From: Fuscovulum blasticum DSM 2131
GTDB lineage: Bacteria > Pseudomonadota > Alphaproteobacteria > Rhodobacterales > Rhodobacteraceae
NCBI RefSeq assembly: GCF_003034965.1
Contig: NZ_PZKE01000003.1
Location: 62,001 to 126,000 of the forward strand
Direction: 5' to 3'
Length of the DNA stretch: 64,000 nt
Below the pieces are notes generated by a model, which had not been told where the DNA came from, did not search any database, and saw only the letters and a list, made by a program, of their open reading frames with translations. Made by a program: the position numbers and the translations under genes. Position 1 is the stretch's first letter; each line of letters begins with the position of its first letter. Positions 14,467-26,229 of the stretch are shown one piece after another.

Positions 14467-15972
14467 TCACTCCCCCCGCGGAAAGCGTTTGCTCTCTTCC
14501 AGCACGTTCAGGTCCATGTGGTTGCGCATGTAGCGTTCCGAGGCGGCGCGGAGGGGCTGGTAGTCCCAGGGGAAATAGGCGCCGTTGCGCAGGGCCTCAT
14601 ACACCACCCAGCGGCGGGCCTGGCTTTCGCGCACTTCGGCGTCATAGCGGGGGATGTCCCAGCGCAGGTCGGCCAGCGCGCGGAAATGCGCCAGCACCTC
14701 GGCCGCGCGCGGGTCGGCGGCCAGGTTCTGCCGTTCGGCCGGGTCATTGGCCACGTCGAACAGCATCTCGGGGTCGGCCGGGCAGCGGATGTATTTCCAG
14801 GCCCCGTCGCGCAGCGCCACCATCGGGGTGATCGTGCCCTCGGCGGCATATTCCATCGGCACCGGACCGCGCGGCTGGCCTGCCGCCACCGGCAGCAGGT
14901 TCACCCCGTCGGTCCAGGGCATCACCTCGGACAGGTCCACCCCGGCCAGCGCGGCCAGCGTCGGCGTCACGTCGATGGTCGAGACCGGCACCTCGACCCG
15001 CCCCGGCGCCAGCCCCGGTGCCGAAATCATCAGCGGCACGCGCGCCGCGCCTTCGAAGAAGTTCATCTTGAACCACAGCCCGCGCTCGCCCAGCATTTCG
15101 CCATGGTCCGAGACGAAGACGATGATCGCCTCCTGCCGGGTCGCCTCCAGCGTGGCCAGGATCTCGCCGATCTTGTCATCGACATAGGAGATATTGGCGA
15201 AATAGCCCTGCCGCGCGCGGCGGATATGGTCGGGGGTAATGTCGAAGGCCCGCCAGTCGCAGGCATCCAGCAGGCGCTGCGAATGGGGATCAAGCCGGTC
15301 ATAGGGCAGGGCCTCGGGCGGTTCCAGTTCCGGGGCGCCCTCGTACAGATCCCAGTATTTCCGCCGCGCCACGAAGGGATCATGCGGATGGGTGAAGCTG
15401 ACCGTCAGGCACCAGGGCCGCGGATCGCCGCCGCGCGACAGGTCATACAGCTTCTGCACCGCCTGGAAGGCCACGTCGTCATCATATTCCAACTGGTTGG
15501 TGATCTCGGCCACGCCGGCGCCGGTCACGCTGCCCATGTTGTGATACCACCAGTCGATCCGCTCGCCCGGCTTGCGGTAATCGGGGGTCCAGCCGAAATC
15601 GGCGGGGTAGATGTCGGTCGTCAGCCGTTGTTCAAAGCCGTGCATCTGGTCGGGGCCGACGAAGTGCATCTTGCCGCTCAGCGCGGTCTGATACCCCGCC
15701 CGGCGCAGGTGATGGGCATAGGTCGGAATGTCGGAACAGAACTCGGCCGCGTTGTCATAGACCCGTGTCCGCCGCGGCAACTGCCCCGACATGAAGCTGG
15801 CCCGCGCCGGCGCGCACAGCGGCGAGGCGGTATAGGCATTTGCGAACCGGGCGGAACGCCCGGCCAGTGCCCGCAGGTTCGGCGCGTGCAGGAAGGGCGC
15901 CGGTCCGTCGGGGAACAGCGTGCCGTTCAACTGGTCAACCATCAGGATCAGGATGTTCGGGCGGGCGGTCAT
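14467..15972 (-). CDS. betC: Choline-sulfatase
   Basis: Hydrolyses choline-O-sulfate to choline and sulfate in the cytoplasm, feeding glycine betaine synthesis or sulfur supply. It has 501 residues from MTARPNILILMVDQ, with a GGAGGA ribosome site 5 bp upstream. The formylglycine motif C-x-P-x-R is present as CAPAR, so C53 is the predicted modified residue. The metal-binding 'MVDQ' start and 'VFVSDHGEMLGERGLWFKMNFFEGAARVPLMI' are typical. The C-terminal stretch 'YMRNHMDLNVLEESKRFPRGE' belongs to the choline-sulfatase C-terminal domain, which separates it from general sulfatases. No betA, betB or betI is adjacent. It diverges from a hydrolase/importer operon with a shared 158-bp regulatory spacer. 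Confidence 0.9.
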   Translation of the reverse strand: MTARPNILILMVDQLNGTLFPDGPAPFLHAPNLRALAGRSARFANAYTASPLCAPARASFMSGQLPRRTRVYDNAAEFCSDIPTYAHHLRRAGYQTALSGKMHFVGPDQMHGFEQRLTTDIYPADFGWTPDYRKPGERIDWWYHNMGSVTGAGVAEITNQLEYDDDVAFQAVQKLYDLSRGGDPRPWCLTVSFTHPHDPFVARRKYWDLYEGAPELEPPEALPYDRLDPHSQRLLDACDWRAFDITPDHIRRARQGYFANISYVDDKIGEILATLEATRQEAIIVFVSDHGEMLGERGLWFKMNFFEGAARVPLMISAPGLAPGRVEVPVSTIDVTPTLAALAGVDLSEVMPWTDGVNLLPVAAGQPRGPVPMEYAAEGTITPMVALRDGAWKYIRCPADPEMLFDVANDPAERQNLAADPRAAEVLAHFRALADLRWDIPRYDAEVRESQARRWVVYEALRNGAYFPWDYQPLRAASERYMRNHMDLNVLEESKRFPRGE

Positions 15973-16031
15973 GCGGTCCTCCGGGGCTGGCTGGCCCATC
16001 GGTGCCGTTGCGGCAGGCGTCGCGCAAGGGG

Positions 16032-16084
16032 GTTTGCGGGCCGCTTGTCGCAAACGCGGGGCAATGCGGCGGAATCGGATTGCC
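16032..16084. promoter_or_regulatory. Two inverted repeats between betC and the CocE-type operon
   Basis: In the divergent spacer (15973-16130), GTTTGCG (16032-16038) pairs with CGCAAAC (16049-16055) across 10 bp. Just beyond it, GGCAAT (16060-16065) pairs with ATTGCC (16079-16084) across 13 bp. Both have operator-like geometry and could co-regulate the two divergent units. No regulator gene lies beside them. Confidence 0.4.
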
Positions 16085-16130
16085 GGGGCGGTGCGGCCCC
16101 GTGCCCAATGCGGCAAAGGAGACTCTGCCG

Positions 16131-18170
16131 ATGGTTGTTCGCACCGATTTCCCGTTCCGCGTGGTCGAACACGAGGACATGGGGATCGTCCTGCCCGACG
16201 GCACGCGCCTGTCGGCCCGGGTCTGGATGCCCGAGGATGCGCCCGCGAACCCGGTGCCCGCGGTACTGGAATACATTCCCTATCGCAAGCGCGACGGAAC
16301 CCTGCCACGCGACGAGATGATGCACCCCTGGTTCGCCGGCCACGGCTATGCCGCGGTGCGGGTCGACATGCGCGGCAACGGCGACAGCCAGGGCCTGATG
16401 GATGATGAATACAGCCCGCAGGAAATGGCCGATGCCCTGGCCGTGATCGACTGGCTGTCGCGCCAGCCCTGGTGCAGCGGCAGCGTCGGGATGATGGGCA
16501 AAAGCTGGGGCGGCTTCAACTGCCTGCAGGCCGCCTTCAACCAGCCGCCCGCGCTGAAGGCGGTGGTCTCGGTCTGCGCCACGACAGACCGTTTTGCCGA
16601 TGACATCCATTTCAAGGGCGGCTGCCTGCTGGGCGAGAATTTCGGCTGGGGCGCGGTGATGCTGTCCTTCTCCAGCCGCCCGCCCGATCCGGCCCTGCGC
16701 CCCGACTGGCGCGAAGACTGGCTGCGCCGGCTGGAAGCCGAACCCTGGCTTGCGCCGCGCTGGGCGGCGCATCAGGCGCGTGATGCTTATTGGGCGCATG
16801 GGTCGGTCTGCGAGGACTGGTCGCGCAACACCGTGCCGGCCATGATCTGGGGCGGCTGGGCCGACAATTACATGAACACGGTGGCGGCGCTGGTCGAAGG
16901 GGCGCCCGCGCCGGTGAAGGGCGTGGTCGGGCCCTGGGTCCACCAGTATCCGCATACCGCCGTGCCGGGGCCGCAGGTGGGTTTCCTGCAGATCGCGCTG
17001 CGCTGGTGGGACCGCTGGCTGAAAGGCGTGCCGAACGGGGCCGAGGCCGACCCCGCCTATCGCGCCTATGTGCTTCATTCCGAACCTCCCGATGCCAGCG
17101 CGAAAGCACGCGCCGGGCATTGGGTGGCCGAGGCCGTGTGGCCGTCGCCCCGCGTGGTGCCGCAGGTCTGGCATCTGGCCGCCGCCGCACCGGGGGTTTC
17201 ACACCCCCGGACCCCCGTGGGATATTTGCAGACAGATGAAAGCCCGGACGGGTTTTTTGTTGAGGTGGCCACGCTGCAACATCTGGGCCTTGCGGCGGGC
17301 GAATTCTTCCCGATGGGCCTGAACGCCGAAATGCCGGGCGATCAGGCGGGCGACGATGCGCTGTCGGTCTGTTTCGACGGGCCGGAACTGATGGCGCCGC
17401 TGCAACTGCTGGGCGCGGCCGAACTGACGCTGCGGCTGTCGTCGGACCGGCCGCTGGGCTTTGTCGTGGCGCGGCTGTGCGATGTGGCGCCGGACGGTTC
17501 CAGCGTTCGCATCGCCCATGGCATGTTGAACCTGTGCCACCGCGACGGCATGGCCACGCCCGCGCCGCTGGTGCAGGGGCAGCCGGTCGCGGTGACGGTC
17601 CGGCTCGACCAGATGGGTTATCGGCTGGCGCCGGGGCACCGTCTGCGGCTGGCGCTGTCGAACAGCTACTGGCCCTTCGTCTGGCCCTCGCCGCAGGCGG
17701 GGGTGCTGACGGTCACGGCGGGGCGGCTGGTGCTGCCCGTGCACCCGGGGGCCGACCGCAGCGAATGGACCCCGCCGCCCGCCGAACATGCCGCGCCCTG
17801 GCAGCACCTCGTTCTGCGACCCGGCCAAAGCCGCCGCTTCGTGGAACAGGATCTGATCACCGGCACCCGCGCGCTGGTGGTTGAAGAGGATGGCGGCGAT
17901 GTCGAGAACCTCACCCATGGCCTGTGTTCCGGCGAGACGATGACCGAGCGCTGGGAGATCGCGCCCGACGATCCGTTGTCGGCCCGGGCGGTGCATGTCT
18001 GGGAACAGCGGCTGTCGCGCGGCGACTGGCGCATCAGGACGCGGGCCGAGGCCACCATGACCGGCACCGCCACCCATCTGCGGATGCAGGCCCGGCTGAC
18101 AGCCTGGGAGGCGGACCGCCAGATTTTCCTGCGCGAATGGGACGAGGAGGTGCCTCGCCACTTCGTGTGA
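16131..18170 (+). CDS. CocE/NonD-family alpha/beta hydrolase (X-Pro dipeptidyl-peptidase S15 type)
   Basis: Predicted serine hydrolase of an ester or amide, possibly acting before or after uptake by the adjacent importer; 679 residues. An S15 alpha/beta-hydrolase domain (about 15-300) carries the nucleophile in 'GKSWGG', the acid in 'WGGWADNYMN' and the histidine near 'GPWVHQYPH'. A C-terminal jelly-roll domain (PepX_C, about 330-560) follows, then an extra tail of about 100 residues. ATG at 16131 is preceded by AAAGGAGA. No signal peptide is evident. Residues about 354-378 are encoded by a palindromic repeat-like element with codon use unlike the rest (TTT TTT, ATA-like low-GC stretch), described separately. 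Confidence 0.88.
   Translation: MVVRTDFPFRVVEHEDMGIVLPDGTRLSARVWMPEDAPANPVPAVLEYIPYRKRDGTLPRDEMMHPWFAGHGYAAVRVDMRGNGDSQGLMDDEYSPQEMADALAVIDWLSRQPWCSGSVGMMGKSWGGFNCLQAAFNQPPALKAVVSVCATTDRFADDIHFKGGCLLGENFGWGAVMLSFSSRPPDPALRPDWREDWLRRLEAEPWLAPRWAAHQARDAYWAHGSVCEDWSRNTVPAMIWGGWADNYMNTVAALVEGAPAPVKGVVGPWVHQYPHTAVPGPQVGFLQIALRWWDRWLKGVPNGAEADPAYRAYVLHSEPPDASAKARAGHWVAEAVWPSPRVVPQVWHLAAAAPGVSHPRTPVGYLQTDESPDGFFVEVATLQHLGLAAGEFFPMGLNAEMPGDQAGDDALSVCFDGPELMAPLQLLGAAELTLRLSSDRPLGFVVARLCDVAPDGSSVRIAHGMLNLCHRDGMATPAPLVQGQPVAVTVRLDQMGYRLAPGHRLRLALSNSYWPFVWPSPQAGVLTVTAGRLVLPVHPGADRSEWTPPPAEHAAPWQHLVLRPGQSRRFVEQDLITGTRALVVEEDGGDVENLTHGLCSGETMTERWEIAPDDPLSARAVHVWEQRLSRGDWRIRTRAEATMTGTATHLRMQARLTAWEADRQIFLREWDEEVPRHFV
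17192..17266 (+). repeat. Palindromic repeat-like element translated in frame inside the CocE-type gene
   Basis: CCGGGGG (17191-17197) pairs with CCCCCGG (17204-17210) across TTTCAC-type loop bases. This is followed by ACCCCCGTGGGATATTTG, CAGACAGATGAAAG and a T-run (GGGTTTTTTG). The hairpin, GATATTT and GATGAAAG order looks like an intergenic repeat or terminator-like element, and from memory similar sequences occur between genes in Rhodobacterales. Here it is read through without a stop. I found no second copy in the window. Confidence 0.5.
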
Positions 18171-18187
18171 CGGCCCTGCGCGGCGGC

Positions 18188-18230
18188 CCGGGCAAGAATC
18201 GTTGCCCGGTCAGCGCCTTCGCGGTTTAGT
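18188..18230 (+). promoter_or_regulatory. Hairpin and candidate promoter ahead of the binding-protein gene
   Basis: CCGGGCAA (18188-18195) pairs with TTGCCCGG (18202-18209) with a 6-nt loop. This could protect or partly terminate the upstream transcript. Overlapping it, TTGCCC (18202-18207) and TTTAGT (18225-18230) are 17 bp apart and could form an internal promoter giving extra expression of the receptor. A GGGAGAAG ribosome site follows. Confidence 0.35.
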
Positions 18231-18286
18231 GAGTGCAATAAACAAACAGGCCCCGAAAAAACCGGGCCAGACAGGGAGAAGACAAG

Positions 18287-19873
18287 ATGACGGACCAACT
18301 TGACCGGATGATCGACACGGTGCGCCGCGGGCGGATGACCCGGCGCGAATTTGTCGGCCGCGCCTCGGCCATGGGCATCACGGCGGGGCTTGCCTCGGCG
18401 CTGTTCAGCAAGACCGCGATGGCGCAGGAACCCAAGAAGGGCGGCGTGATCCGCGTCGGTATGCAGGGCGGCGAATCGACCAACTCGCTTGACCCGGCGC
18501 TGGCCGCTTCGGAAGTGCCGTTCCAGGTGAACATGACCTGGGGCGAAATGCTGGTGGACGTGAACCCCGACGGGTCGATCGACCACCGCATCGCGGAAGA
18601 GGTCAGCAGCAATGCCGACGCGACCGAGTGGAAGTTCAAGATCCGCGCCGGCGTCGAATTCCATGACGGCAAGACCGTCACCGCCGAAGACGTGGTGGCC
18701 ACTCTGAAGCGCCACACCGACGAGAAGTCGCAATCGGGCGCGCTGGGCATCGTGCAGGGCATCAGCGAGATGAAGGCCGAGGGCGACATGGTCACCCTCA
18801 AGCTGTCGGCCGCCAGCGCCGACCTTCCCTATCTGATGGCCGACTATCACCTGATCATCCAGCCCGGCGGCGGCGTGGACAATCCGGCCGCCGGCATTGG
18901 CGCAGGCCCCTACAAGGTGGTGGTGAACGAGCCGGGCGTGCGGCACACCTTCGCCAAGCACGCCAACTATTTCGACAGCAGCATCGGCCATGCCGATGAG
19001 GTGGAAATCCTGGTCATCAACGACAACACCGCCCGTACCGCGGCGCTGCAATCGGGCCAGATCCACATGATGAACCGGGTCGATCCGAAGATCGTCGAAC
19101 TGCTGAAAGGCGCGCCGGGCATCCAGATCAAGTCGGTGGCCGGGCGCGGGCATTATGTCTTCATCATGCACGTCGACAAGCCGCCCTTCGACAACAACGA
19201 TCTGCGGATGGCGCTGAAATACTCGATCAACCGTCAGGAAATGGTGGACAAGATCCTGGGCGGCCTGGGCAGCCGGGGCAACGATTTCCCGATCAACGCG
19301 GCCTATCCGCTGTTCGACGACAGCATCGAGCAGCGCGAATACGATGCGGCCAAGGCGGCAGAGCATTACAAGAAGTCCGGCCATGACGGCAGCCCGATCG
19401 TGCTGCGCACCGCGCCGGGCGCCTTCCCGGGTGCGGTCGATGCGGCCAACCTCTTTGCCGCCAGCGCCAATGCCGCCGGCATCCCGCTCTCGGTCAAGCT
19501 GGAACCCGATGACGGCTACTGGTCGAACGTCTGGAACGTGGAACCCTTCTGCGCCAGCTACTGGGGCGGCCGCCCCGTGCAGGACCAGATGTATTCCACC
19601 GCCTATCTCTCCACCGCGGAATGGAACGACACCAAGTTCAAGAACGCCCGGTTCGACGAACTGCTGCTGGCCGCCCGGGGCGAGCTGGACGCGGCCAAGC
19701 GCAAGGGCATGTATTCGGAAATGGCCCATATCCTGCGCGACGAAGGCGGCCTGATCCTGCCGATGTTCAACGACTTCGTGTCGGGCGTCAGCGATGCCAT
19801 CGCCGGCTGGGCCGACGATCCGAACGGCGAGTTGATGAACGGGCGGGCCCAGGTCCGCTGCTGGCTGGCATAA
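18287..19873 (+). CDS. ABC transporter substrate-binding protein, family 5 (Tat-exported)
   Basis: Periplasmic receptor for the second peptide-type importer, 528 residues. The twin-arginine signal is explicit, 'RRGRMTRREFVGRASAMG', followed by a hydrophobic stretch and 'AMAQE' cleavage near residue 47. SBP_bac_5 motifs include 'VRVGMQGGESTNSLDPALA', 'WKFKIRAGVEFHDGKTVTAEDVVATLKRH' and 'DLRMALKYSINRQEMV'. It is encoded between the CocE-type hydrolase and its permeases. Tat export suggests folding before export. The ligand is unknown; the flanking sulfatase, hydrolase and phosphodiesterase suggest an esterified compound. Confidence 0.92.
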   Translation: MTDQLDRMIDTVRRGRMTRREFVGRASAMGITAGLASALFSKTAMAQEPKKGGVIRVGMQGGESTNSLDPALAASEVPFQVNMTWGEMLVDVNPDGSIDHRIAEEVSSNADATEWKFKIRAGVEFHDGKTVTAEDVVATLKRHTDEKSQSGALGIVQGISEMKAEGDMVTLKLSAASADLPYLMADYHLIIQPGGGVDNPAAGIGAGPYKVVVNEPGVRHTFAKHANYFDSSIGHADEVEILVINDNTARTAALQSGQIHMMNRVDPKIVELLKGAPGIQIKSVAGRGHYVFIMHVDKPPFDNNDLRMALKYSINRQEMVDKILGGLGSRGNDFPINAAYPLFDDSIEQREYDAAKAAEHYKKSGHDGSPIVLRTAPGAFPGAVDAANLFAASANAAGIPLSVKLEPDDGYWSNVWNVEPFCASYWGGRPVQDQMYSTAYLSTAEWNDTKFKNARFDELLLAARGELDAAKRKGMYSEMAHILRDEGGLILPMFNDFVSGVSDAIAGWADDPNGELMNGRAQVRCWLA

Positions 19874-19885
19874 GGCCCGAAGCCG

Positions 19886-20842
19886 GTGCATCCCGTTCTT
19901 GTTCTGGTGGTCCAGCGCATCGCGCTGGGCCTCCTCCTGCTCCTCGCCGTGTCGGCGGTCATCTTCCTGGGCGTCGAGGCGCTTCCGGGCGATACCGCCC
20001 AGGCGATCCTGGGGCAGCAGGCCACGCCCGAGGCGCTGGCCAACCTGCGCGAAAAGCTGGGCCTGAATGACCCCGCCATCACCCGTTATTTCCGCTGGCT
20101 GGGCGGTGTCCTGACCGGCGATCTTGGCACGGCACTGACCAATGGCGCCGACATCGCCACCTCGATCGGGCAGCGGCTGGGCAACACGCTGTTCCTGGCG
20201 GGCTGCGCCGCGGCCATCTCGGTGCCGCTGGCCATCATCCTGGGTCTGATCGCCGCCCGCTACGCCGGGCGCTGGCCCGACAAGCTGATCTCGGGCGTCA
20301 CCCTGACCACGATCAGCCTGCCCGAATTCGTGGCGGCCTATTTCGTGATCTACCTGCTGACCCAGGTCTTCCCGGTGTTCCAGCCCGTCGCCATGGTCTT
20401 TCCCGGGATGAGCTTCTGGGCCAAGCTGCAGGCGGTGGCGCTGCCGGTCATCGTGCTGGTGGTGGTCGTGCTGGCGCATATGATGCGGATGACCCGCGCC
20501 GCCATCCTGAACGTCATGCAATCGGCCTATATCGAAACGGCCGAGCTGAAGGGCCTGTCACCGATGACGGTGATCTGGCGCCACGCCTTCCCCAATGCCA
20601 TCGCGCCGGTCGTCGCGGTCGTCATGCTGAACATGGCCTATCTGGTGGTGGGGGTTGTCGTGGTTGAGGTGGTGTTCAGCTACAACGCATTGGGGCAATA
20701 TCTGGTGGACCACGTTTCCAAGCGCGACCTGCCGGTGGTGCAGGCCGTCGGCCTGATCTTCGCCGCCGTCTACATCACCCTGAACATGCTGGCCGATGTC
20801 ATCGGCATCATCAGCAACCCGCGTCTGAGGCATCCGAAATGA
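19886..20842 (+). CDS. ABC transporter permease (DppB-like)
   Basis: First permease of the second importer, 318 residues, with a BPD_transp_1 domain. 'RIALGLLLLLAVSAVIFLGVEALPGD' is the first helix and the start of the conserved DppB region. The coupling loop is 'IETAELKGLSPMTVIWRHAFPNA'. The start is GTG, 12 bp after the binding-protein stop, and the 3' end overlaps the next permease gene by 4 bp. The C-terminus 'ISNPRLRHPK' matches the family's usual 'NPRLR' ending. Confidence 0.9.
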   Translation: MHPVLVLVVQRIALGLLLLLAVSAVIFLGVEALPGDTAQAILGQQATPEALANLREKLGLNDPAITRYFRWLGGVLTGDLGTALTNGADIATSIGQRLGNTLFLAGCAAAISVPLAIILGLIAARYAGRWPDKLISGVTLTTISLPEFVAAYFVIYLLTQVFPVFQPVAMVFPGMSFWAKLQAVALPVIVLVVVVLAHMMRMTRAAILNVMQSAYIETAELKGLSPMTVIWRHAFPNAIAPVVAVVMLNMAYLVVGVVVVEVVFSYNALGQYLVDHVSKRDLPVVQAVGLIFAAVYITLNMLADVIGIISNPRLRHPK

Positions 20843-21654
20843 GGCTGCCGTTCTCCGCCCTGCTGGGCCTGTCGCTGACCGGCCTGTTCCTGTTCATCGC
20901 GATCTTCGCCCGCTGGATCGCGCCCTATCCCATCGACCTGGCGGTCGGCGGGGTCTGGGAAGGCCCCTCCGCGAAATACTGGCTGGGCACCGATACCATC
21001 GGCCGCGACATCCTTTCGCGGCTGATCTACGGCGGTCAGGTCACCATCTTCGTGGCGCTGGCCTCGTCGATCCTGGCCTTCTCGCTGGGCTCGTTCCTGG
21101 GCTTCCTGGCCGCCGTCAAGGGCGGGCTGGTCGATCAGCTTCTCAGCCGGATGGTTGATCTGGTGATGGCGATCCCGTCGCTGATCGTGGCGCTGGTCAT
21201 GCTTTCGGTGCTGCCGCTGAACCTGACGGTGCTGATCCTTGTCATCGGCGTTCTCGACAGCACCCGCGTCTTCCGCCTGTCGCGCGCGGTGGCCGTCGAC
21301 ATTGCCGTGATGGATTACGTCGAAGCCGCCAAGCTGCGCGGCGAAGGCCAGTCCTGGGTGATCTTCCGCGAAATCCTGCCCAATGCCCTGTCGCCGCTGG
21401 TGGCGGAATTCGGGCTGCGCTTCATCTTCGCCGTGCTCTTCATCTCGACCCTGTCCTTCCTGGGCCTCGGCATCCAGCCGCCGCTGACCGACTGGGGCGG
21501 CATGGTCAAGGAAAACAAGGATGGCCTGATCTATGGCAAGGCCGCCGCGCTGATGCCCGCCGCCGCCATTGCCGCGCTGGCGATCAGCGTCAATCTCGTG
21601 GCCGACTGGGTGCTGACCCGCACCTCCAGCCTGAAAGGAGGCCGCGGTGGCTGA
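20839..21654 (+). CDS. ABC transporter permease (DppC-like)
   Basis: Second permease of the importer, 271 residues. It shows 'WLGTDTIGRDILSRLIYGGQVTI' after the first helix, and the coupling loop 'VEAAKLRGEGQSWVIFREILPNA'. It overlaps the preceding permease gene by 4 bp and the ATPase gene by 8 bp, so the whole transporter is translationally coupled. The domain structure is normal. Confidence 0.9.
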   Translation: MRLPFSALLGLSLTGLFLFIAIFARWIAPYPIDLAVGGVWEGPSAKYWLGTDTIGRDILSRLIYGGQVTIFVALASSILAFSLGSFLGFLAAVKGGLVDQLLSRMVDLVMAIPSLIVALVMLSVLPLNLTVLILVIGVLDSTRVFRLSRAVAVDIAVMDYVEAAKLRGEGQSWVIFREILPNALSPLVAEFGLRFIFAVLFISTLSFLGLGIQPPLTDWGGMVKENKDGLIYGKAAALMPAAAIAALAISVNLVADWVLTRTSSLKGGRGG

Positions 21655-23284
21655 CAACACCCTTCTGGAAATCCGCGGCCTTGTGATCCAGGCCACCAGC
21701 TACCCGCCCGGCGAACCCCCGAAAGAGGTGACGCTGGTCCACGGGGTAGACCTCACGCTGCAACGCGGCCGCGTGCTGGGGCTGATCGGTGAATCCGGCG
21801 CCGGCAAATCCACCATCGGCCTGTCGGCCATGGCCTATGGCCGGGGCGGGGTGCGGCTGACCGGCGGCACCATCACCCTGAACGGCCGGGAAATCCGGCT
21901 GGCCAGTCCCGCGGCGCTGCGCAGCCTGCGCGGGCGCGAGGTGACCTATGTCTCGCAATCCGCGGCGGCCTCGTTCAACCCGGCCAAGCGGCTGATGGAA
22001 CAGGTGATCGAAACCAGCATCGCCCATGGCGTGATGACGCGCCCCGAGGCCGAGGCGCGGGCGGTCCTTCTGTTCCGCAAGCTGGGCCTGCCCAACCCCG
22101 AAACCTTCGGCAACCGCTATCCGCATCAGGTGTCGGGCGGGCAGTTGCAGCGCGCGATGACGGCCATGGCGCTGTGCCCCAAGCCCGATCTGGTGATCTT
22201 CGACGAACCCACCACCGCGCTGGACGTGACCACGCAGATCGACGTGCTGGCCGCCATCAAGGAAGCCATCCGCGACACGCAGGTCGCCGCGCTCTATATC
22301 ACCCACGATCTTGCAGTGGTGGCACAGGTGGCGGATGAGATCATGGTGCTGCGCCATGGTCGCATGGTCGAACTGGGCGAAACGGCGCAGATCATCAAGG
22401 AACCCCGGCAGGACTATACCCGCGCGCTGGTCTCGGTCCGCAGTCTGGAACATGCCGAAAAGCCGCCCGCGCCCCCGGTGCTGCGGATCGAAGGGCTGAC
22501 CGCGCGCTATCGCGGCACGCATTTCGACGTGCTGAAACGGGTCTCGGTCGAACTGCCCAAGGGGCAGACGCTGGCCGTGGTGGGCGAAAGCGGATCGGGG
22601 AAATCGACGCTGGCCCGCGCCATCACCGGGCTGCTGCCGCCGTCCTCGGGGCGCATCACCTTTGACGGGCGCGAACTCTCGCCCGATCTGGCCGGGCGCA
22701 GCAAGGATGACCTGCGCGAAATCCAGATGATCTACCAGATGGCCGATACCGCGATGAACCCCCGGCAGACCGTGGGCACCATCATCGGCCGGCCGCTTGA
22801 ATTCTACTTCGGCCTGAAGGGCGCCGCCCGCGACCGCCGCGTGCAGGAACTTCTGGACGAGATCGAGATGGGCAAGGGCTTTGCCGACCGCTATCCCGCC
22901 GAACTGTCGGGCGGGCAGAAACAGCGTGTCTGCATCGCCCGCGCGCTGGCCGCCAAGCCCAAGCTGATCATCTGCGACGAGGTGACTTCGGCGCTTGATC
23001 CGCTGGTGGCCGATGGCATCCTCAAGCTGCTGCTGAACCTTCAGGCCATCGAACATGTGGCCTATCTGTTCATCACCCATGATCTCGCCACGGTCCGCGC
23101 CATCGCCGACAAGATCGCGGTCATGTACAAGGGGCAGGTCGTCCGCTACGGCCAGAAATCCGATGTGCTGGCCCCGCCTTTCGACGATTACACCGACCTC
23201 CTCCTGTCCTCTGTTCCCGAGATGGAAGTGGGCTGGCTTGAGCAGGTGATCGCGCATCGCAAGATGGAAAGTGCCGGAAACTAG
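21647..23284 (+). CDS. Double ABC ATPase (fused DppD-DppF type)
   Basis: Drives the second importer with two ATPase domains in one 545-residue chain, unlike the separate pair in the first importer. Domain 1 (about 5-265) has 'GESGAGKST', 'VSGGQLQR' and 'LVIFDEP'. Domain 2 (about 280-535) has 'GESGSGKST', 'LSGGQKQR' and 'LIICDEV'. The second Walker B ends DEV rather than DEP, though the catalytic Glu is kept. GTG at 21647 is preceded by AAAGGAGG, which fixes the start. Fused forms like this are common in proteobacterial peptide and glutathione-type (Gsi/Yej) systems. Confidence 0.92.
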   Translation: MADNTLLEIRGLVIQATSYPPGEPPKEVTLVHGVDLTLQRGRVLGLIGESGAGKSTIGLSAMAYGRGGVRLTGGTITLNGREIRLASPAALRSLRGREVTYVSQSAAASFNPAKRLMEQVIETSIAHGVMTRPEAEARAVLLFRKLGLPNPETFGNRYPHQVSGGQLQRAMTAMALCPKPDLVIFDEPTTALDVTTQIDVLAAIKEAIRDTQVAALYITHDLAVVAQVADEIMVLRHGRMVELGETAQIIKEPRQDYTRALVSVRSLEHAEKPPAPPVLRIEGLTARYRGTHFDVLKRVSVELPKGQTLAVVGESGSGKSTLARAITGLLPPSSGRITFDGRELSPDLAGRSKDDLREIQMIYQMADTAMNPRQTVGTIIGRPLEFYFGLKGAARDRRVQELLDEIEMGKGFADRYPAELSGGQKQRVCIARALAAKPKLIICDEVTSALDPLVADGILKLLLNLQAIEHVAYLFITHDLATVRAIADKIAVMYKGQVVRYGQKSDVLAPPFDDYTDLLLSSVPEMEVGWLEQVIAHRKMESAGN

Positions 23285-23336
23285 GTATGACCCTTTGCCA
23301 TACGCCGGACATACCCAAGGCAGACGGAACGCAGAC

Positions 23337-24170
23337 ATGACGAAACTCCTGCTCATCATCCTTGACGGGGTGCCTTACGCGAACTGGCGCCGGCTGTTCG
23401 GCAATCTGGAAGGCTGGGTCGAAAGCGGCGACGCGCGGGTCCGCCGGATGCGCGCCGTGCTGCCCTCGACCTCGGCCAGTTGCTACGCCTCGATCCACAC
23501 CGGCGTGCCGCCGCAGGTGCACCGGATCTGGGACAATGCCGACATAAGGCGGCTGGAAATGCCCGACGTGTTTTCCGAACTCACGCGGGCGGGCAAGAAG
23601 ACCGGGGCCGTAACCCATTCATATTGGTCGGAATTCTTCAACCGCGCGCCCTTCGATGTGGTGCGCGACATCGAATATGACGAACCCGGCGGCCCCATCA
23701 CCCATGGCCGGTTCCACACCATGAAGGGCTATGGCCACGCCAACCAGATGACGCCGGCCGATTACGACCTGTTCGGAACCCTCACCCGTCTGGCCGAGGT
23801 GAAGGGGATCGACTACGGCATCCTGCACACCTGCACGCTGGACAGCATGGGCCACCGCTTCTTCCACGACTGCGAAGAAATGGACCACGCCTGCTTCGCC
23901 ATGGACGCCACCCTTGCCCCCTTCATAAGCCGTTGGAGAGACAAGGGTTTTGAGGTGATCGTCACCGCCGACCACGGGCAGGATTCGCGCGGCCACCACG
24001 GCGGAACCGGCGAAGCACAGCGCGATTTCGCCTTCTACTATTTCGGCACCTCCCCCCTTCCGCCGGGGGATGAGGTGCTGGACCAACTGGCCCTTGCCCC
24101 CTCGATCCTGACACGGATGGGCGTTCCGGTGCCCCCCGGCATGAAGGCCCGCCCCTTCCTGTCGGCCTAG
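23337..24170 (+). CDS. Alkaline-phosphatase-superfamily phosphodiesterase/nucleotide pyrophosphatase
   Basis: Predicted metal-dependent phosphodiesterase, 277 residues from MTKLLLIILDGV. 'LLIILDGVPYANW' supplies the first metal ligand, 'LPSTSASCYASIHTGV' the nucleophile Ser/Thr region, and 'VIVTADHGQDSRGHHGG' the C-terminal Asp-His metal ligands. These are all hallmarks of the type I phosphodiesterase family. It is the last gene of the CocE-importer operon, 52 bp after the ATPase. An upstream in-frame GTG (23271) would overlap the ATPase gene, but the conserved domain begins at 23337. The substrate could be a phosphate or phosphonate ester brought in by the importer; this is inference. Confidence 0.82.
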   Translation: MTKLLLIILDGVPYANWRRLFGNLEGWVESGDARVRRMRAVLPSTSASCYASIHTGVPPQVHRIWDNADIRRLEMPDVFSELTRAGKKTGAVTHSYWSEFFNRAPFDVVRDIEYDEPGGPITHGRFHTMKGYGHANQMTPADYDLFGTLTRLAEVKGIDYGILHTCTLDSMGHRFFHDCEEMDHACFAMDATLAPFISRWRDKGFEVIVTADHGQDSRGHHGGTGEAQRDFAFYYFGTSPLPPGDEVLDQLALAPSILTRMGVPVPPGMKARPFLSA

Positions 24171-24176
24171 GCCGCC

Positions 24177-24923
24177 TCAGCCCGCGTAGCCGGGATCTTC
24201 CGCGTCCAGAATGGCCCGGATCTCGCGCAGATGCGCCTCGGCAAAGCCGGGGTAGTCTTCCCATTCGCGCGCGGTCTTTTCGGCAACCTCGTCCGGCAGA
24301 ACCCGCAGCGGCCGCCCCGTCTGCAGGGCGCGGATGTAGGTTTCTGCTGCGCGTTCAAGGTAATAGAGCCGGTTGAACGTCTCGGCCACCGTGCGGCCGA
24401 TCACCAGAACGCCATGGTTTCCCATGATCAGCGTGGTGATCTTCGGGTCGGCCAGCAGGCTTGCGCACCGGGCGCCTTCGGCCTCGAACGCCATGCCGCC
24501 ATAGGCGTCGTCCACCACATGACGGCCAAAGAACATGGCGGTGTTCTGGTCAATCGCCGGCAACCGGCTGTCGGCCAGGCTGGCCAACACGGTTGCATGG
24601 ATCGAATGGACATGCATCACGCAGGCCGCATGGGGCAGGGCGCGGTGGATCGCGCCATGCAGGCCCCAGGCGGTGGGGTCGGGCGCATCGGAGCGGGTCA
24701 TGGTGGCCGGATCGTCTGCGTCAATCTCGATCAGCGACGAGGCGGTGATCCGGCTGAAATGCCGGCCGTTCGGGTTGATCAGGAACCGGCTGCCCGAGGG
24801 GTTTACCGCCAGCGAAAAGTGGTTCGCCACCGCTTCATGCATGTTCAGCCGCGCCGTCCAGCGGAAGGCGGCGGCCATGTCAACACGCTGGGCCCAATGG
24901 GTGATGTTGGCAGGGGCGTTCAT
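24177..24923 (-). CDS. Class II aldolase/adducin family protein
   Basis: A zinc-dependent aldolase-fold protein of 248 residues. The conserved '[13 protein letters not shown]' gives the His ligands of the metal site, and '[29 protein letters not shown]' is the typical C-terminal half. It is closest in layout to the adducin-like members annotated only as class II aldolase family, so cleavage of a sugar phosphate cannot be assumed. It overlaps the upstream hydrolase gene by 4 bp and converges on the phosphodiesterase gene with 6 bp between stops. Confidence 0.87.
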
Positions 24924-25969
24924 GGGCGGTCTCCGAAAGGCCAGTCGCCACGGGCAAAGCTGGCAAGGGTGGCGGTGATCAGGGCAAAGCTGTCGGCGGC
25001 GCGGGGAACCGTGGCCCGCGCCCGCAGATAGCCATGGACAAGACCGGGCGCCGTCACCGCATGGGCACGGCCCCCGGCGGCAGTGATCGCCGCGGCATAG
25101 GCGGCGGCATCGTCATGCAGCGGGTCACATTCGGCGCCGATGGCCAGGGTCATGGGCAGGCGGGTGAAGTCCTTGTCCTGCAAGGGGGAAACGGTCGGAT
25201 CGCCCGGCGGTGGGGCGGTGCCGCCGTGGCGGATTCCGGCGTAGAACTCCAGATCGGCGGCGGTCAGCATCGGGGCGTTCGCGTGGGTGCGATAGCTGCC
25301 TGTGCTGCGGTCTCCGCCAAGGCCGGGATAGACCAGCACCTGGCCCAGAAGCCGCGTCTCGCGCAGCACATGCGCGGCGGCGGCCACCAGATTGCCCCCC
25401 GCGCTGTCACCCGCCAGCAGCAGCGGCCCGGGCGTGGCGCGGATCACGGCCAGCACATCCTCCAGCGCGGCGGGGTGGCGGTGTTCGGGCGACAATCGGT
25501 AATCGACACTGATCACCGTCAGCCCGGTTTCGGCGCGGATCTCGGCGCAGACGTCATCATGGCTGTGCAGCCCGCCCACCACATAGCCGCCCCCATGGGC
25601 GTAGATCACCACCGGCCCAGTGCCGGGGTAACGGCGGCAGGGAACGCCGGCAATCACCTCGTCCGTGGCGGTCACGCCCGGCGGATAGCCGCGAAAGAAG
25701 GCGCGGCACATCCTGTCATAGATCGCGCGCTGGTCGGCGATGGACAGGGTGGCGGTGTCGGGGGGATAGGCGGCCTCGGTCGCGCGGATGAAGGCCCAGG
25801 TGGGCGCGTCGATGAGGCGGGTGTAATCGGGCTGGGTCATGCCCGCAGTCTGCGCGGGGGCGCGTTCCAGCGCGGTGATGTGAACGAACACGTCCTTCTT
25901 GCCGCCTTCCGGGGCAATGAAGCCGTAGCCTTTGGTTTCATTGAACCACTTCACGGTGCCCTTGGCCAT
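24920..25969 (-). CDS. Chimera: truncated cold-shock domain fused in frame to an HSL-family alpha/beta hydrolase
   Basis: One open frame encodes 349 residues. Residues 1-37 are the first half of a CspA-type cold-shock protein, with both RNA-binding motifs (KGYGFI and VFVHI). The usual continuation (GLTGL...) and last two strands are missing. After a 6-residue linker the sequence restarts at a Met (ATG 25840) as a family IV hydrolase, 306 residues, with oxyanion motif 'HGGG', nucleophile 'GDSAGG', acid 'ECDPLHDD' and 'GLVHGYL' histidine. A strong AAGGAG lies before the cold-shock start, while the internal ATG has no evident ribosome site, so translation probably begins at 25969. It looks like a deletion that joined a csp gene, with its leader, to the hydrolase. 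It heads the unit with the aldolase. Confidence 0.75.
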
Positions 25970-26229
25970 CGTGAAACTCCTTCCGAAGTGCCGCCCGCGG
26001 GAGTGCGGCGGCCTGGCGCAGTCAGCTGTAGTCGATAGCTGCGGCCATAGGCCCGAGACAGATCGAGAGAGATAACGTCGCCCCCTGCATATGCGGCAAA
26101 GGCGACCAAAATGCAAGTATTTCCGCCATTGCGGGAGCGTGGCGATCCGGGGCGAACCGGCCCTTCCCATGTTATTGCACAAACGATTTCAGCCGGTTGC
26201 GGGCAGGAGGGGCCGCCTTGCCAAGATAT

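Follow-up and report, generated by a model that had tools for sequence, protein, structure and literature searches.

A probable deletion-born fusion of half a cold-shock gene to an esterase gene, behind csp expression signals, in Fuscovulum blasticum DSM 2131

The window, a stretch of 64,000 nucleotides from Fuscovulum blasticum DSM 2131, carries on its minus strand a single open frame in which the first half of a cold-shock protein gene (csp) is joined to a whole HSL-type esterase gene, with an aldolase-type gene directly downstream. The coding features are as follows.

24920..25969, minus strand: chimeric coding sequence, 349 codons plus stop, single open frame
25859..25969, minus strand: Csp part, codons 1–37, PF00313 positions 2–36 of 66
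25841..25858, minus strand: junction, codons 38–43 (PAQTAG), placed by sequence comparison
25838..25840, minus strand: ancestral esterase start codon, now internal, lacking a ribosome site (+0.3 kcal/mol)
24923..25840, minus strand: complete HSL-type alpha/beta hydrolase, PF07859
25405-25403, minus strand: S189, within the GDSAG motif (187–191)
25126-25124, minus strand: D282, conserved column
25036-25034, minus strand: H312, conserved column
24177..24923, minus strand: class II aldolase/adducin-type gene, PF00596

Residues 1–37 of the chimera are the first half of csp, residues 38–43 the junction, and residues 44–349 a whole esterase with its catalytic triad. Mechanically, the frame remains open back to a TTG at 26182; the ATG at 25969 was taken as the start because it is the csp start in all 19 relatives that carry csp at this locus. 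Residues 3–37 match the cold-shock domain (Pfam PF00313, E = 5e-14) over profile positions 2–36 of 66 only, so the domain is incomplete in the chimera. This homology is not chance. Both KGYGFI and VFVHI, which we take to be the RNP1 and RNP2 motifs, are kept. In the esterase part, residues 121–315 match Abhydrolase_3 (PF07859; E = 1.4e-49, 169 bits against a cut-off of 25), and HGGG (125–128), GDSAG (187–191), D282 and H312 all lie in columns conserved at 90% or more; presumably HGGG is the oxyanion motif, GDSAG holds the nucleophile, and the Asp and His belong to the triad. The esterase protein alignment had 48 rows, two of them covering the Csp part only, and one locus (L039) was omitted from protein alignment A3 for a stop in its translation. 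A sequence-only reading of this DNA had described half a cold-shock protein and a hydrolase in one frame, and the open frame and the two Pfam matches confirmed that description; the RNP1/RNP2 and HGGG/GDSAG motifs named there are present.

Seven NCBIfam models were matched by the esterase, none at its cut-off. Its dN/dS was 0.22 against the closest relative at the locus, L038, and the value between L038 and L026 was 0.19. In an AlphaFold model, the esterase body was mostly above pLDDT 90. Its best solved match was HylD1 (PDB 8yqj; 49% identity, TM 0.95 by target length), a family IV (HSL) hydrolase of Paracoccus kondratievae, for which the available text lists dimethyl and diethyl phthalate as substrates (PMC10537300). 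The solved HylD1 chain has 291 residues and, unlike the chimera, no aligned Csp extension. Judged from the model, folding and activity of the esterase body should be unaffected, and the first 37 residues would form a loose N-terminal extension. The downstream gene matches PF00596 over profile positions 2–183 of 183 (146 bits) and NF005689 above its cut-off, and its start overlaps the chimera stop in an ATGA (24923-24920).

The ancestral arrangement was sought in 99 esterase loci (L002–L020 and L026–L105). csp precedes the esterase in the same orientation in at least 20 of these loci, from 19 distinct genomes (L002 and L038 are one genome, counted once); the flanks of L002–L020 were only 1.5 kb long and some other loci stop at contig ends. 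The distance from csp to the esterase match was 106 to 759 bases in the 20 loci. The sequence-only reading had pointed to the syntenic locus of close species as the place to look for an intact csp, and a whole csp of 68 codons stands there in all 19 genomes. One further locus, L039, has csp downstream of the esterase and is outside the 19. The nearest relative at the locus is L038 (genome G010, Xinfangfangia pollutisoli Clo-40), at 82–83% protein identity; other close esterase matches are named Tabrizicola, Cypionkella, Pseudotabrizicola or Rhodobacteraceae.

Between csp and the esterase, 14 of the 19 relatives carry a convergent antisense ORF of about 130–155 codons, an ordinary-looking receiver-like gene; that of L038 (L038:4353-4781, minus strand) is homologous to the 13 others (E = 3.5e-8 to 1.6e-59), and the product is a small stand-alone receiver-like protein. 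Searches with two of the sequences gave no Pfam match. The AlphaFold model of the L038 protein had a pLDDT of 87, and its best Foldseek matches (E = 6e-4) were receiver domains such as DivK. A reading of the intervening gene as DUF192 was rejected: the one DUF192 match of the window genome is on another contig, and the intervening ORF has no Pfam match. In the other five relatives (L004, L033, L043, L044 and L051) csp is whole and the csp–esterase gap is 106–201 bases, too short for the receiver-like gene. Thus, this gene is missing in several lineages, and csp is cut too in the window only.

The Csp part of the chimera matches the relatives through ALERA, after which the relatives continue GL(R/T)(G/S)L and the window PAQTAG-M; the earlier remark that the cold-shock part breaks off at this point therefore stands. 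Homology to csp ends at 25859 and homology to the sequence upstream of the esterase (GCGCAGACTGC) begins at 25855, where similarity to the pre-esterase sequence of relatives (GCGCAGACTG, in L026 and L003) sets in. The ancestral esterase Met is residue 44 of the chimera (ATG at 25840). From csp codon 37 to the esterase start there are 845 bases in L038 versus 18 in the window, a net loss of 827 bp relative to L038 and of 792 bp relative to L026 (about 790–830 bp). Twelve other species of the genus were searched for the fused frame, and it was absent from all of them. A search of relatives for the same junction, as the sequence-only reading had advised, thus gave 19 genomes with the genes split and one with them fused; the derived state of the fusion follows from counting genomes, not from a tree.

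The receiver-like gene gave no match in the whole window genome, either with a single sequence or with a 14-row profile at a threshold of E 0.01. The same profile found some match in all 12 other species of the genus, and in 9 of the 12 a strong match (E = 5e-27 or better) adjoins csp; in G012 the adjoining csp is frameshifted, and G003, G009 and G011 have weak matches at other positions. These observations (relatives split, intervening gene gone from the genome, continuous open frame) are those of a deletion-born fusion. The chimera is a real feature of the assembly with a clear origin. Its being in frame says nothing about selection, since random joins of the same kind made from five relatives gave an open in-frame chimera in 6.5–33% of cases; the in-frame join was accordingly rejected as a sign of selection.

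Upstream of the chimera, the csp expression signals are arranged as follows.

26111..26116, minus strand: putative –35 element of the csp promoter (TTGCAT), CTTG columns identical in all 20 upstream regions aligned
26088..26093, minus strand: putative –10 element of the csp promoter (CATATG), a CATAT-like sequence in the majority of these 20 regions
25960..26091, minus strand: intact 5' leader RNA of csp, extended over the first 10 coding nucleotides, 126.2 bits with covariance model R1 (a high score partly by construction, the window being one of the 20 training rows)
25990..26012, minus strand: hairpin GCCGCCGC...GCGGGCGGC in the leader, immediately 5' of the ribosome site, covariation over 79 leaders
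25977..25984, minus strand: ribosome site GGAAGGAG serving the csp ATG, –6.6 kcal/mol as a duplex with the anti-SD

The putative –35 and –10 elements are spaced by 17 nt and, from their conservation, would constitute the csp promoter. A generic sigma-70 scan reported no promoter here or in L038, and a generic terminator scan reported none on the relevant strand; the DNA is GC-rich. The only good ribosome site had been placed before the csp start, and the duplex energies bear this out (–6.6 kcal/mol versus +0.3 kcal/mol at the internal ATG, 25840). The weak site at the internal ATG is not unique, since the esterase starts of 17 relatives range from –11.6 to +1.2 kcal/mol. With L047 and others having a weak site or none here too, the internal ATG could still serve at some rate.

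A GC-rich hairpin stands 11–63 bases past the csp stop codon in all 19 relatives and is gone from the window. Its score was reached by at most 1 of 60 dinucleotide shuffles per relative, and it is probably the csp terminator. In 17 of the 19 hairpins the 3' arm or tail contains at least three consecutive T; the hairpins of L038 and L034 have no T run, so the terminator reading is weakest at L038, the closest relative. With the probable terminator gone and the upstream elements retained, the esterase and the aldolase most likely use the expression signals of csp: its promoter, leader and ribosome site. Most likely, transcription from the csp promoter would reach both genes and translation would begin at the csp ATG. 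Altered expression of the esterase is likely, and capture of the downstream aldolase gene through the ATGA overlap is plausible from the sequence.

By analogy, expression of the chimera may also be cold-responsive. Cold raises Caulobacter cspA 68-fold and cspB 560-fold, according to the available part of the report (PMC8552747), which makes a cold response of csp at this locus plausible. In the literature searched on csp in Rhodobacter and Caulobacter, no report was found of cold induction for csp here in Rhodobacteraceae. The arrangement resembles that of pCold-type vectors, in which, as far as the available text describes them, the cspA promoter and 5' leader precede a foreign coding sequence as in the window (PMC9800685). 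Unlike in those vectors, the case in the window is natural and the leader is different, and cold induction would be an expectation.

The leader was followed across genomes with R1, a model built from 20 leaders at the csp–esterase locus. Of 80 genomes of the family, 67 gave a match, among them the window genome, and 13 gave none; of 115 genomes of the class, 2 gave a match, both from this family and one of them again the window genome; searches over 40 genomes used stricter filters. Among the best 63 of 110 matches, 59 were examined for csp (the window's own, G097, G031:C87 and the second G068 match were omitted, and the 47 weakest lie outside this set), and all 59 (loci L129–L187) precede an intact csp of 68–74 codons. 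In the combined 79 leaders (20 training and these 59), the hairpin next to the ribosome site was paired in 98.4% of cells and had two-sided changes in 6 of 8 pairs. These amounted to 57 cells versus 15.9 in shuffles, and 5 of 500 shuffles also reached 6 pairs; the alignment is fitted to the model and its rows are related, both of which bias towards structure. Helix 7 of the fitted structure had two-sided changes in 3 of 4 pairs, and when RNAalifold was run on the same alignment, nothing but the ribosome-site hairpin and a helix of three pairs survived. Folded as a single sequence, the window leader did not stand out from its shuffles (z = –0.27); thus, the structure signal comes from the alignments and not from single-sequence folding.

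Compared with Rfam, the leader-plus-gene regions of 19 of 20 relatives matched the cspA thermoregulator RF01766 below its 78-bit cut-off (best 70.1 bits, E = 2e-16), and that of the window reached 15.6 of 78 bits (E = 0.5). Leader-only pieces from the window and the two best-scoring relatives had no Rfam match up to E = 1, so the leader alone does not account for the RF01766 scores. RF01766 is itself a family of csp mRNAs. A 227-nt cspA leader of Agrobacterium was described as a thermosensor on the basis of an Rfam match, as stated in the accessible part of that paper (PMC3738593). We propose the csp leader as a conserved, covarying structured RNA of Rhodobacteraceae and a candidate new cis-regulatory RNA family, common across the family and outside the coverage of Rfam at its thresholds.

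The cut csp is not the only one in the window genome. Two further intact single-domain csp genes (L177 and L188) remain, so loss of this csp is probably tolerated; the paralogue L188 has no leader. Two adjacent partial matches in one frame indicate that the genome probably has a two-cold-shock-domain gene as well. All 12 other species of the genus have an intact 68-codon csp, which by leader score is the orthologue in 10 species and probably a paralogue in G003 and G012. The orthologue of G012 (L207, G012:C1:141700-143200) is frameshifted behind an intact leader (109.9 bits) and may be a second loss or a sequencing error. In L203 (G004:C8:95300-97300), a csp paralogue, the frame departs from the Csp sequence near the C-terminus only.

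We propose the following course of events. In the window lineage, a deletion of about 0.8 kb would have run from csp codon 37/38 to about 15 bases before the esterase start codon. By comparison with the relatives, it would have removed the csp 3' half, the hairpin after csp and the opposite-strand receiver-like gene, as well as the native promoter region and ribosome site of the esterase. The esterase, and the aldolase via the stop–start overlap, would then most likely be transcribed from the csp promoter, with translation most likely from the csp start to give a Csp(1–37)–esterase chimera. Taken as a whole, we consider a deletion-born Csp–esterase chimera behind csp expression signals very probable. 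The first of two alternatives offered by the sequence-only reading, that the hydrolase acquired a csp promoter and leader through a deletion, is thus strongly supported by the synteny in 19 relatives and by the genome-wide absence of the intervening gene.

Known deletion-born fusions provide the setting for this event. The available text of Kaul, Rossine, Brinda and Baym describes how a deletion between two genes fuses their remnants while relatives stay split (PMC12803068). Deletion-born fusion as a class of event is thus already published, and the chimera, with remnants in one open frame and split relatives, fits it. In the parts of the study that are available, no clear beneficial function is found for such fusions, and two fusions of the M. 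tuberculosis complex lost catalytic motifs. In contrast to those fusions, the downstream enzyme is whole here, and the captured part comprises a promoter, a leader and a ribosome site. A search of the literature on csp fusions and csp leaders, made by title and abstract and with subscription papers mostly outside it, found no csp–hydrolase fusion and no csp leader of Rhodobacteraceae.

Whether the deletion was also favoured because it placed the esterase and aldolase under csp signals is a separate question, and such selection, which would extend the main explanation, we regard as possible though tentative. In its favour, the promoter-like elements, structured leader and ribosome site were kept, the hairpin after csp is gone, the cold rise of Caulobacter cspA and cspB in the available account (PMC8552747) offers a precedent, and the engineered pCold vectors, as far as the available text shows, combine the same kinds of parts (PMC9800685). 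The first 37 codons, moreover, have no amino-acid difference from L028 and L031; this identity says little about use because the Csp N-half hardly varies among relatives. On the other side, no sign of selection was found in what is a single genome, in-frame joins are common by chance, and the literature searched on Rhodobacter and Caulobacter csp yielded no report of cold induction for the csp here in Rhodobacteraceae. A natural promoter-and-leader swap, which would have moved an intact esterase and aldolase as a whole into the csp regime, is likewise possible but less likely than not. If true, a catabolic enzyme would have come under temperature control in a single step via a family-specific, covarying csp leader, and the deletion-born fusion would be valuable for regulation and not for its hybrid protein.

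The fusion could instead be dead or dying, a unit heading for loss in which the internal ATG or nothing is used; this we think rather unlikely. The G012 csp orthologue also looks broken, which suggests that csp may be dispensable, and in 9 of the 12 other species of the genus the best esterase match, if any, is no better than E = 4e-39, so the esterase is dispensable as well. However, the catalytic triad is kept, no stop interrupts the frame, and dN/dS is like that of the relatives, although this value mostly reflects history before the fusion.

An artefact, in which the assembler dropped about 0.8 kb and the true locus is an intact csp, receiver-like gene and esterase, is very unlikely. The sequence is a single draft genome (3.59 Mb, 69 contigs), and the frameshifted orthologue in G012 may show that errors occur in such loci. 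However, the junction is internal to a contig of 287,672 bp, the genome has a completeness rating of 99.99%, and the missing receiver-like gene is on no other contig. The deletion explanation itself rests on one genome in one assembly, to which a misassembly or a recent laboratory deletion could still apply. Among plasmid records, 300 had partial matches and none covered 80% of the stretch.

Least probable, and unsupported, is the second alternative of the sequence-only reading, a new fusion whose RNA-binding half-barrel serves as a tag that retains RNA binding and directs or controls the esterase: RNP1 and RNP2 are both retained and strands at residues 4–10, 15–20 and 27–30 still form in the AlphaFold model, but about half of the domain is missing, strands 4–5 included, the Csp part is a loose piece of low confidence (pLDDT 66–68, below 50 in the disordered linker at residues 33–40, from a thin alignment with only two rows besides the chimera), and the one genome is the only case, with no second among 93 distinct csp N-halves in the loci compared. 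A function for the half-barrel, or a new protein function, is thus unlikely.

With the deletion-born chimera as the preferred reading, the locus is a clear case of a gene rewired through deletion, with a regulatory consequence likely and a new activity of the hybrid protein unlikely. A complete enzyme was kept and a complete expression module gained, with the split state known at base level in 19 relatives, and so the chimera makes it possible to ask directly whether a deletion can give rise to function by changing how a gene is expressed.

The neighbouring stretch (window 14467-24170) holds a choline-sulfatase gene at 14470-15969 (minus strand), a CocE/NonD-type hydrolase at 16101-18167 (plus strand), a peptide-type ABC importer at 18287-23284 (plus strand) and a phosphodiesterase-type gene at 23271-24170 (plus strand), the last convergent with the esterase–aldolase pair.
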